In this document: piece by piece, positions 28,472 through 33,728 of the stretch
Position numbering within the stretch: the first letter of the stretch is position 1
How the letters are laid out: each line of letters opens with the position of its first letter
Origin: Microcaldota archaeon
GTDB taxonomy: Archaea > Micrarchaeota > Micrarchaeia > Micrarchaeales > Micrarchaeaceae
Length of the DNA stretch: 36,701 nucleotides
Direction: 5' to 3'
NCBI GenBank assembly: GCA_021807115.1
Contig: JAKAPJ010000013.1
Span: forward strand, 1 to 36,701
Notes under the pieces: model-generated
Told to the model about the DNA's origin: nothing
Seen by the model: the letters and a program-made list of their open reading frames with translations, nothing else
The model's database searches: none
Position numbers and translations under genes: made by a program

Positions 28472-29251
28472 CTATACGCTTATTATCCGCAGCCTGTCCC
28501 TGAGAAGTCTGAACGATATTTTTTTCCCATGCCCTATGCGCAGCCCCCTGCGCCTGCTCGGTATCCCATAGAGGTACTGGTCGCTGCCCCTCCTCATCAC
28601 CACGGTTATCCGGGTTGTCGGCAGCATGGATCGCCTTACCTTGTAGCCCACCACCGCCCCATTTATCGTGTCGTTCACGTTGGCGGGCAGTATGTGCGCG
28701 AACCCCATTCCGCGTATCCTCCTGGCCTGTCTCCTTGCGAGCATCTCCACATATGCGTAGTATCCGGTGGAGCCTATGGGCGTGGTGACCACGAACCCGT
28801 TGGAGACTGCGCTGGTCCTTATGGTCCTGCCACCCTCTCTTATGCTGGCCGAATACCTTATTGCGTGCTTTATGTTCCCGCGCTCCACGTAGAAGTCCCC
28901 GGCAGACAGGTACCTCCTCCCGCCATACTCCGCCTCTAGCAGCGGCTCCGAGATGACCTTGTAGTCCCCGCTCGCCATCCTTCCCATCACGCTTGGCAGC
29001 TCCCTGAGGCGGTACTTGCGTATCTTGTCCCCGCCCTCTGGCCGCGCGATGACCTTCATCACCGGTATTATTGGCACATTGAGGTGCCTGACTGACTGCT
29101 TGAGGAATGTGCCGTCGCCACCAACTATGATTGCGACATCGTAGCCGCGGCTAGCAACCTTGACGTTGGCGCGCTTGAGCAGCCTCCTCACGCTGCCCAT
29201 GGTAACGCCGGCGTACCTGTCTATCACGACCTTGGCCTTTATCTGCTTCAT
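28472..29251 (-). CDS. nadK: NAD kinase
   Basis: 259 residues from the ATG at 29251, preceded by a GGTGGGGAG Shine-Dalgarno-like run. GGDGT at 44-48 is the ATP/NAD phosphate-binding motif. TPIGSTGY at 157-164 is the second signature (usually TPTGSTAY). The enzyme phosphorylates NAD to NADP. The usual (G)DG preceding the second motif reads SNG here, and the NE/ND motif is altered to AGD (117-119), so cosubstrate preference may differ. An upstream TTG at 29266 is a less likely start. It is divergent from the phosphohexomutase. Confidence 0.87.
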   Translation of the reverse strand: MKQIKAKVVIDRYAGVTMGSVRRLLKRANVKVASRGYDVAIIVGGDGTFLKQSVRHLNVPIIPVMKVIARPEGGDKIRKYRLRELPSVMGRMASGDYKVISEPLLEAEYGGRRYLSAGDFYVERGNIKHAIRYSASIREGGRTIRTSAVSNGFVVTTPIGSTGYYAYVEMLARRQARRIRGMGFAHILPANVNDTINGAVVGYKVRRSMLPTTRITVVMRRGSDQYLYGIPSRRRGLRIGHGKKISFRLLRDRLRIISV

Positions 29252-29455
29252 CGCGCTCCCCACCAATAACTACCAACAGCAATTTGCCGCACACCCATAT
29301 GTATGCCTCTCCAATTCGGCGGGTGCGGCGATGCACCCGGGTGAACCCAAGGTCATTGTGCATGGGTGCCGCAGAATCAATAAATATATAAAATAAGCCA
29401 TTTAATAAGCTTATTAATTGGACAGCACGGCCAGAATGTTTACCTGCGGCTGACT
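29252..29455. promoter_or_regulatory. Repeat-rich divergent intergenic region with palindrome
   Basis: The 204-bp gap between nadK and the mutase holds several elements. GCCGCACACCC (29286-29296) is inverted with respect to GGGTGCGGC (29321-29329). GGGTGC-GGCGAT-GCACCC (29321-29338) is a perfect 6-bp hairpin. A further GGGTGCCGC lies at 29365-29373. A strong TATA region (AATAAATATATAAAATAA, about 29378-29395) is followed by TTAATAAGCTTATTAA (29402-29417), a perfect 16-bp palindrome near the predicted start of the mutase transcript. The arrangement suggests regulator binding. Confidence 0.6.
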
Positions 29456-31503: not shown

Positions 31504-31515
31504 ACCTATTTAAGC
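31504..31515 (+). promoter_or_regulatory. TATA box of the paralogue-ferredoxin operon
   Basis: ACCTATTTAAGC predicts initiation near 31537, 26 bp before the ATG at 31563. AAGGGAAG (31535-31542) may act as a weak Shine-Dalgarno. Confidence 0.5.
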
Positions 31516-31562
31516 CTTTTAAGGTAGTATCCTAAAGGGAAGTGCCCTGTGCGTGTGTGTTA

Positions 31563-32270
31563 ATGTTAGGGTTCATTAGTTTCCTGCTGCAGTTCTCTGC
31601 CGGCTCGTACGCGCAGGAGTGGGTCAGCGCCGGTTCGCTGTTCACCGAGCAGCTCGTGTACTACTTCATATTCGTATTCGCCGTCTTTGCGGTGGCTATG
31701 CAGGTCTCCAGGGGCTACTTCCTCAGGGTGCTGCGCAAGTTCACCCTCCGCCTTGCCGCGGATATATGGTGGATAGTGTTCATACTGCTCCGCGCAGCTG
31801 CAATATTCCTGGTACTGTTCCTCGGGGTCTCAATCTTCTGGCCCGGCACGTACGAGGACTACGCGATAGGGATGCCGTTCATGCCCCTTGGCATAGACTT
31901 CTTCTCGTTCGCGCTCGTTCTACTGCTGCTGAGGGACACCGACGAGGACCAGCAGGCGAACAGGTGGCTTACGCTGCTGCTCACTATAGGCGCCGCACTG
32001 ATAACAATAAGCGTGGTGTTCGTGAGCCAGAACCCGGCGCAGCTGGTTGCCGGAGGCATGAGCGTTCCCACCGTGTCGACATCCACGGGCAACCCGTGGG
32101 GCATCCTCTACACGTACTTCGACTCGGTGAACAACCCGACAATATCGATATATTCATTCTACATAACGTTCATACTCCTGGGGCTCGCAGGCGGCAGGGC
32201 AGTCGGATGGTCATACGAGCAGTGGGCACTGATGTCCCAGAAGGCGCAGCCCGCACCGCAGCAGAAATGA
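31563..32270 (+). CDS. Unknown polytopic membrane protein, paralogue 1
   Basis: 235 residues with about five to six membrane helices. The ATG at 31563 was chosen; GTGs at 31542 and 31557 would add a few residues. A highly conserved stretch shared with the next gene is SRGYFLRVLRKFTLRLAADIWW (about 50-71). A second shared stretch is RDTDED after helix four, and a third NPWGILYTYFDSVNN followed by YSFYITFILLGLAG near the C terminus. Helices are rich in Phe/Tyr/Trp. No histidine occurs in the chain, so heme ligation by His is excluded. It ends in a short Gln/Pro tail. I know no family; the downstream ferredoxin suggests a membrane partner in electron transfer. Confidence 0.82.
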   Translation: MLGFISFLLQFSAGSYAQEWVSAGSLFTEQLVYYFIFVFAVFAVAMQVSRGYFLRVLRKFTLRLAADIWWIVFILLRAAAIFLVLFLGVSIFWPGTYEDYAIGMPFMPLGIDFFSFALVLLLLRDTDEDQQANRWLTLLLTIGAALITISVVFVSQNPAQLVAGGMSVPTVSTSTGNPWGILYTYFDSVNNPTISIYSFYITFILLGLAGGRAVGWSYEQWALMSQKAQPAPQQK

Positions 32271-32289
32271 TGGATATGGGATTGGTAAA

Positions 32290-33270
32290 ATGCTTGACAT
32301 AACACCGCTGTTGCTTCTGGCGCCCGGCGCGATAAACACAACCCCGCCAACTGCCGCGTCGCTGAACGCAACTCTTGGCACCACTGTATTCAATGCTCCG
32401 CAGATAGCAAACGGCCTGCTGATATACGCAGCAGAGACCGCTGTAGTTCTGATAGAAATTCTGATGGTGCTGGCAATATCGATGCAGCTCGCCAGGGGCT
32501 ACTTCTTCAGGGTTCTAAAGAAGTTCACGCTTAGGCTCGCGGCAGACATATGGTGGCTGATATACGTGCTGCTTCGCGACATAACGATACTGCTAGTGCT
32601 GCTGCTTGGCGTGGTAGTGTTCCTGCCCACATTCGACCTCTCTTTCGGGGTGGCGGTGCCGTTCCAGCCTGTTGCTATAGTGCTCTACGCATTCGCACTG
32701 GTAATAATACTTACAAAGGACACGGACGAGAGCGCAGTGTGGGACACCAGGGTCACGTCCCTGCTCGCTGCCGGCACTGGTCTGTACACGATAGGCGTGG
32801 TGATAGTCACCGAAAGCGCCGTGCAGCTGTCCAGGCCGCCCACCACTGTAGGGGCGTCCATCACAAATCCATGGGGCTTCATCTACACGGTGTTCAATTC
32901 CGCAAACGACCATGCAATGTACATGTACACTTTCTATGTCTCATTCCTCCTGCTTGCAACGGCCGGGCTAATCGCGGTCAGGTGGGCAACGAAGCCGATG
33001 GGCGGCGGCGCGGCAAAGAAGGACGTTCCTGTGCCTCCGAAGCCTGTCATAAAGACAGGCCCGGCGGCAACGGCGCCCGCTCCTGCGCCACCTGCACCAA
33101 AGCCGTCTCCGTCACCTGCGCCCACCGCGGCGCCAGTTCAAATTCCCCCGCCAGCGCCCGCCACAGCTACCGGTCCTGCGCCGCCGCTTGAGCACCAGAA
33201 AAGGCATCCACACAGGCCGCCCGCGCCCGGGCAGCCCCAGTCTCCAGACGAACACGAAGGAGGTGCTTGA
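32290..33270 (+). CDS. Unknown polytopic membrane protein, paralogue 2, with Pro-rich tail
   Basis: 326 residues, 19 bp after paralogue 1. It repeats the conserved core ARGYFFRVLKKFTLRLAADIWWLIYVLLRD, the KDTDES motif and NPWGFIYTVFNSAND ... YTFYVSFLLLATAGLIA, so the pair arose by tandem duplication. The N-terminal exterior segment has sequons (NTT, NAT). From about residue 237 a 90-residue Pro/Ala/Lys-rich, apparently cytoplasmic tail replaces the short tail of paralogue 1. The Shine-Dalgarno of the ferredoxin lies within its last codons. Function unknown. Confidence 0.82.
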   Translation: MLDITPLLLLAPGAINTTPPTAASLNATLGTTVFNAPQIANGLLIYAAETAVVLIEILMVLAISMQLARGYFFRVLKKFTLRLAADIWWLIYVLLRDITILLVLLLGVVVFLPTFDLSFGVAVPFQPVAIVLYAFALVIILTKDTDESAVWDTRVTSLLAAGTGLYTIGVVIVTESAVQLSRPPTTVGASITNPWGFIYTVFNSANDHAMYMYTFYVSFLLLATAGLIAVRWATKPMGGGAAKKDVPVPPKPVIKTGPAATAPAPAPPAPKPSPSPAPTAAPVQIPPPAPATATGPAPPLEHQKRHPHRPPAPGQPQSPDEHEGGA

Positions 33271-33272
33271 AG

Positions 33273-33728
33273 ATGGCGTTCGAATTCACATTTGACAAGA
33301 CACTCTGCTTCCAGTGCGGCGTGTGCGCAGACCTCTGCCCAGTAAACGCCCTGGACTACACCAGGGCGCGGCACAAGAACCTTGAGGACAGCCCAGGCTA
33401 CACCAACGAGCGCGCGGAGGACATGACAGAGTACCCCGTGCAGGTTAACAGGTGCATAGGGTGCATGATATGCCCCACCGAGTGCCCTGTCGCATGCATC
33501 ACGATAAAGCAGGCGGACAAGGAGCCCCAGTACCTCCCAGTACAGGGACCTATGAAGACCGAGGAGGCAACCGAGTCGGATTTCGGTCTGTCCCAGTACA
33601 CAAAGGTAAGACCCACGAAGAACAAGACAAAGGAGCCGTGGGGCAAGCAATACATCTACAGGCCGCTGCGGCGCAAGTCCGCCACGCAGACCCTTGATGA
33701 GAGTGACATAATAGCCACGCAGGTCTGA
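33273..33728 (+). CDS. Dicluster ferredoxin, 2x[4Fe-4S]
   Basis: 151 residues from the ATG at 33273, chosen because GGAGGTG (33259-33265) is spaced 7 nt before it; the TTG at 33267 is too close. CFQCGVCADLCP and CIGCMICPTECP are two complete CxxCxxCxxxCP motifs, separated by about 35 residues. A basic C-terminal extension of 70 residues (KVRPTKNKTKEPWGKQYIYRPLRRKS) may dock to a partner. Genes for 2-oxoacid oxidoreductase or NADH dehydrogenase subunits are absent; the two membrane paralogues upstream are the only candidates for partners. Confidence 0.93.
   Translation: MAFEFTFDKTLCFQCGVCADLCPVNALDYTRARHKNLEDSPGYTNERAEDMTEYPVQVNRCIGCMICPTECPVACITIKQADKEPQYLPVQGPMKTEEATESDFGLSQYTKVRPTKNKTKEPWGKQYIYRPLRRKSATQTLDESDIIATQV

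Follow-up and report, generated by a model that had tools for sequence, protein, structure and literature searches.

What two adjacent polytopic membrane proteins and a ferredoxin do together is the question raised by positions 31563–33728 of the DNA analyzed here (the window, a stretch of 36,701 nucleotides from a micrarchaeal contig). The three tandem ORFs described there in the initial annotation were confirmed on the forward strand. MP1 (31563–32270, 235 aa, ATG start) is the first copy of a 5-TM membrane protein and lacks His, as first described, and also Cys. Based on ORF, alignment, and topology, the second copy, MP2 (32290–33270, 326 aa), has a Pro/Ala-rich cytoplasmic C-tail and ends with a stop codon at 33268–33270. 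The cluster motifs and alignment identify the third gene as FER (ATG at 33273, 33273–33728, 152 aa with the stop counted as the end), a 2x[4Fe-4S] ferredoxin with a mostly basic, conserved C-terminal tail of ~65 aa. Its Shine-Dalgarno sequence, GGAGG at 33259–33263 on the forward strand, lies within the last codons of MP2, 9 nt ahead of the FER ATG, and had correctly been placed inside the second membrane gene. The archaeal TATA consensus is well established, and a TATA-box-like stretch read from the sequence, TATTTAAGCCTTTTAAGG (31507–31524, forward strand), located 39–56 nt 5' of the MP1 start, is a candidate promoter of the MP1-MP2-FER module. Antisense ORF clusters overlying FER (c4 and c12) were rejected as spurious. 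Elsewhere in the window, positions 28472–29266 of the reverse strand encode a weak NAD kinase-like protein scoring under the Pfam cut-offs.

MP1 and MP2 show 44% identity across 189 aa (E = 9e-47). The motifs they share lie far above chance, as the core residues R69, Y71, F72, R74, L76, K78, FTLR 79–82, A85, D86, and WW 88–89 (MP2 numbering) are invariant in 39 family members. These residues cluster in a basic, predicted cytoplasmic loop between TM1 and TM2 with the pattern R-x-YF-x-R-x-L-x-KFTLR-x-AAD-x-WW. The other two motifs initially noted in both proteins are kept in part across the family. D144 and T145 of DTDE are retained at ≥90%, and N193, W195, and G196 of the NPWG block are likewise invariant, but its Pro occurs only in the window genome and a few others, most of the family having N(I/F)WG. 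From the alignment statistics, MP has five TM segments, and the charge balance indicates an N-out/C-in orientation: the TM1-TM2 loop contains ~5 Lys and Arg residues and the C-tail another 5, compared with 0–0.4 in the outside loops. There are no conserved His, Cys, or Met ligands in the TM helices; the best His and Cys columns of the family alignment reach 10% and 44%, respectively, and the best Met column (67%) is located at the N terminus. The lack of cofactor ligands in the initial description thus extends to the family, which excludes MP as a conserved carrier of heme or Fe-S clusters. From these columns, it looks like a cofactor-free membrane anchor.

The proposal that MP is an undescribed family was borne out by profile searches. 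No Pfam or NCBIfam model matched MP1 or MP2 above its cut-off, no PDB relative was found by sequence or profile, and no match to a known family unrelated to redox chemistry emerged. VKOR was rejected as the identity of MP1 (14.1 bits compared with a Pfam cut-off of 27.5), since MP1 and MP2 lack Cys and no Cys column reaches 50%, and AmaP and other weak profile matches were regarded as noise. An AlphaFold2 model of MP built from 12 sequences (pLDDT 61, pTM 0.52) is too weak for a fold claim, and a Foldseek search of this model against the PDB returned nothing at E ≤ 0.001.

FER carries two CxxCxxCxxxCP motifs in a dicluster domain that matches Fer4_7 with 40 bits against a cut-off of 27. All eight cluster cysteines (C13, C16, C19, C23, C62, C65, C68, and C72 in the numbering of alignment A2) are invariant in 37 FER sequences. 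Judged by these motifs, the first 80 residues are an ordinary dicluster ferredoxin, followed by a conserved tail of ~65 residues, in agreement with the basic extension first noted; the tail has no homologue in Pfam, NCBIfam, or the PDB. Identification as RnfB, PorD, or FwdF was rejected on scores of 28.5, 33.6, and 33.1 bits against curated NCBIfam cut-offs of 68.7, 60.05, and 375, respectively, the FwdF match being one to the generic dicluster repeat. The AlphaFold2 model of FER (pLDDT 38) was not usable. Further ferredoxins were also seen. On contig C15 of the window genome, L181:4766–5092 encodes a second dicluster ferredoxin that resembles FER, is 109 aa long, and lacks the C-terminal tail. 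A separate, conserved soluble ferredoxin of ~110–120 aa ending in SIYK, SVYK, or SIYA occurs at L143, L145, L146, L149, L150, and L151, in genomes with and without FER, and is a candidate soluble partner. In G084, a truncated FER without the first cluster (L079:4973–5299) is present without MP and looks like a copy decaying after MP loss.

Profiles from 39 MP and 37 FER sequences were run against 301 genomes of the phylum, and detected MP in 62 and FER in 58 genomes, all within one order (families f1 and f2). FER is complete in 57 of these, each of which also has a canonical MP, and the two genes are neighbors wherever both could be placed; the 58th genome is G084 with its truncated copy. The conserved ferredoxin beside MP that had been anticipated in other Micrarchaeota was therefore found in all placeable cases. 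A one-genome-per-species scan of GTDB r220 returned 11 loci, 10 titled Micrarchaeota and 1 titled "bacterium", and plasmids and viral contigs yielded no MP relatives. The distances of MP and of FER are correlated, with r = 0.68, a value not reached in any of 5000 label shuffles, and the MP and FER trees mix f1 and f2 in a similar manner, which suggests that the two genes travel together as a cassette. No FER of the tailed type accompanies six divergent MPs (G011, G066, the second copy of G004, G026, G257, and G258). Those of G011, G066, and G004 (L075:3556–6643, L076:5040–7923, and L077:3596–5694) lie in gene clusters of their own, together with two predicted exported proteins that contain Cys, have no Pfam match, and carry the motifs YDHNCLPxGNGxxSCDAGI and PCCDNPTxxPDCNHGAAxLGLIELMASQG; a membrane MarR-type regulator is present in two of these three clusters.

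The two paralogues seen in the window genome are not the family rule. Most genomes have a single MP, making one MP plus FER the core unit, and tandem MP pairs occur in 7 genomes (the window genome, five of genus g19, and G229). In a tree of four tandem-pair genomes, the copies of each kind form their own clade with supports of 100/100 and 100/99, and on this topology the MP1/MP2 pair is a single derived duplication now found in two families. A homomeric or monomeric anchor would thus be ancestral, and the heterodimer of the initial annotation at most a local variant. Overall, the initial interpretation is supported in part. A third gene is linked to the pair in some genomes. Its ~145-aa product matches nothing in Pfam (alignment A6; e.g. 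L162:6563–6997), and the gene is present in 14 of the 164 genomes of the order, the window genome having no copy. FER is found in 13 of these 14, and in 12 the gene lies directly beside MP-FER, either upstream, divergent, or directly downstream of FER; in the fourteenth genome (G235) it is at a contig end.

The genomic setting suggests which membrane complex MP-FER might serve. The order has an 11-subunit complex I comprised of NuoA-D and NuoH-N with its own NuoI, and no NuoEFG was seen in the clusters. According to PMC5864196, such a complex has been described for Micrarchaeota with ferredoxin as the proposed donor, and PMC11238625 treats the direct electron donor of the 11-subunit complex as an open question, no common donor protein having been found in bacteria. 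MP-FER lies near nuo genes in two to three genomes with different arrangements. In G036, NuoH-I-J-K-L-M-N-MP-FER are on one strand with NuoA-B-C-D convergent next to them; in G006, the order is MP-FER-NuoA-B-C-pilin-NuoD, all on one strand; and in G004, NuoN is two genes away from MP-FER, within 6 kb. Immediate same-strand adjacency to a nuo cluster was thus seen twice compared with ~0.05 expected, a hand estimate for ~25 independent neighborhoods of a pattern noticed post hoc. Any respiratory gene lies within 6 kb at 4 of ~36 loci, against a rough expectation of 1–2, which is weak alone. Most MP-FER loci do not adjoin Nuo genes, and TATA-like boxes separate MP-FER from the Nuo genes in both G036 and G006, so co-transcription is not claimed.

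Among genomes of at least 80% completeness, NuoD is found in 40/40 with FER compared with 64/74 without (Fisher p = 0.014; these association tests were made on MAGs, with a partial correction for common descent, and several families were tried, which affects single p-values). NuoL/M/N-type subunits are present in 56/57 FER-containing genomes. The association of MP-FER with complex I is moderately supported. Complex I does not need MP-FER, as it is present in most genomes without the pair; one of these, G042, has both complex I and cytochrome bd. Reading the window by itself had missed the links to the NuoEFG-less complex I and to other respiratory genes, and the inverse pattern with cytochrome bd.

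Cytochrome bd is patchy over the 164 genomes of the order and shows an inverse pattern, occurring in 5/57 genomes with FER compared with 48/107 without (p = 1.3e-6; p = 0.003–0.007 when FER labels are shuffled within genera). The alternation holds inside genera g1, g28, g31, g33, and g34, where bd is absent from members with FER, present in some members without FER, and never found together with FER. Cytochrome b is likewise less frequent with FER (16/57 compared with 55/107, p = 0.005), and no genome of the order reached the curated cut-off for a heme-copper oxidase. The bd pattern could reflect oxic or anoxic habitat and not mechanism. In G261 (L173:9377–14553), a duplicated MP1-MP2-FER unit is divergent from adjoining Rieske, cytochrome b, and TatC genes; the same stretch encodes a possible cupredoxin-like exported protein with no Pfam match. 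OFOR is not associated with FER (34/57 compared with 55/107, p = 0.33) and was rejected as an obligatory reductant, as a general rule, since it does not track with FER and G006, at 95% completeness, has no OFOR match.

On this evidence our tentative first choice, held a little below even confidence, is that MP-FER docks a ferredoxin at the membrane as part of the respiratory chain, where it most likely is an accessory module transferring electrons for the 11-subunit complex I. MP would be the anchor, its five TM helices oriented N-out/C-in so that the basic TM1-TM2 loop, the DTDE loop, and the C-tail face the cytoplasm. It would bind FER, probably through the conserved FER tail, and thereby hold the two [4Fe-4S] clusters at the cytoplasmic membrane surface. 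There they may exchange electrons with NuoI and with soluble ferredoxin or another cytoplasmic redox protein. We infer these contacts among MP, FER, and complex I, as well as the role of the tail; electrons might flow either inward, from ferredoxin to complex I, or outward. Since most carriers keep complex I with its proton-pumping subunits and have no recognized terminal oxidase, the module probably belongs to an oxygen-independent mode. Arguing against a role at complex I, the carriers have their own NuoI and other ferredoxins.

The main rival, which we regard as rather unlikely, holds that MP-FER belongs to anaerobic metabolism as a free-standing ferredoxin complex anchored in the membrane, has no contact with complex I at any point, and instead serves another membrane reductase or just localizes a pool of ferredoxin. 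The Nuo and bd patterns would then mark an anoxic niche. Such a complex would fit the near-universal presence of complex I in the order with or without FER, the many MP-FER loci away from Nuo genes, the separate TATA-like boxes, and a bd pattern that can be ecological. It is less easily reconciled with two different immediate placements beside Nuo genes plus one near case, with the Rieske/cytochrome b neighborhood in a further genome, and with the presence of NuoD in every FER-containing genome that is at least 80% complete.

The inverse bd pattern, also within genera, and the lower frequency of cytochrome b point to a second alternative, in which MP-FER is an electron outlet. An oxidase-less complex I would run in reverse, or with no net oxidation of quinol, and pass electrons to FER, which would replace cytochrome bd as the sink. 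Succinate dehydrogenase-type FeS subunits are retained in G000, G006, and G036, all without bd, in line with this scheme. However, 2x[4Fe-4S] ferredoxins usually have a low potential and can be reduced by quinol only with an input of energy, five genomes have both FER and bd, and no downstream acceptor was found, which makes the outlet improbable. A role as an assembly or repair factor for the Fe-S subunits of complex I, and not as an electron carrier in turnover, is very unlikely. Such a factor could well include an optional membrane subunit that has no cofactor and, in some genomes, clusters with nuo genes, but most genomes having this complex I lack the module, and the eight cluster cysteines and the tail are kept family-wide, as in an electron carrier. 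The idea that FER is just NuoI, displaced or duplicated, and that MP is a diverged membrane subunit of Nuo is refuted as stated and has next to no probability, for although NuoI is the best NCBIfam match of FER (E = 4e-9) and the dicluster domains align (hhalign 99.8%), FER scores 36.1 bits against the 113-bit cut-off of TIGR01971, a separate NuoI of 119–131 aa is present in the nuo clusters of the same genomes, which also excludes FER as its replacement, and MP aligns with each of NuoA, H, J, K, L, M, and N at an hhalign probability of ≤2%.

Accessory modules of this type have a functional parallel. Cyanobacterial NDH-1 has ferredoxin-binding accessory subunits, and by analogy only, these resemble MP-FER as extra subunits enabling a NuoEFG-less complex I to use ferredoxin. 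NDH-1 docks a soluble [2Fe-2S] ferredoxin, whereas MP-FER encodes its own 2x[4Fe-4S] ferredoxin beside the membrane protein. Extra subunits are mentioned in PMC11238625. Also among the closest systems is the 11-subunit complex itself, known from Desulfitobacterium (PMC11238625) and described for Micrarchaeota (PMC5864196). It is present in all well-sampled carriers, with ferredoxin as the proposed donor and with MP-FER beside its genes in two to three genomes. In contrast, the canonical 11 subunits include neither an MP-like protein nor a tailed dicluster ferredoxin, and MP-FER is optional and lineage-restricted. FER shares the dicluster [4Fe-4S] fold with polyferredoxins and NuoI-type proteins (FwdF, 5T5I_F; NuoI/TYKY), with phmmer matches in the PDB of E = 5.6e-18 to FwdF of 5T5I and 5.5e-20 to subunit F of 9SW6. 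It differs in having only two clusters' worth of repeats, a unique conserved C-tail, and scores far under the family cut-offs; from these comparisons, FER adds a new member to a known fold. The MP family and the MP-FER cassette are absent from the reference libraries Pfam, NCBIfam, and PDB, and no published description of the cassette was recognized in the selected passages of the literature searched.

With more reserve, we consider it possible that MP-FER, together with the optional ~145-aa protein, is a previously undescribed module for electron exchange between NuoEFG-less complex I and the cytoplasm, in which a cofactor-free anchor fastens a dicluster ferredoxin of its own to complex I and whose users are mostly DPANN archaea without a recognized terminal oxidase. 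The carriers are tiny, host-associated archaea, most of which retain a reduced complex I and lack any known oxygen-using enzyme. If the link to complex I is true, MP-FER would join the accessory electron-transfer modules of this enzyme. As a linked, conserved, and optional cassette in one archaeal order that tends to alternate with cytochrome bd, it is a candidate for the electron connection of the 11-subunit complex I and gives concrete genes with which that connection can be tested. It thereby also concerns the way in which host-dependent Micrarchaeota could use a respiratory chain that retains complex I but has no known oxidase.
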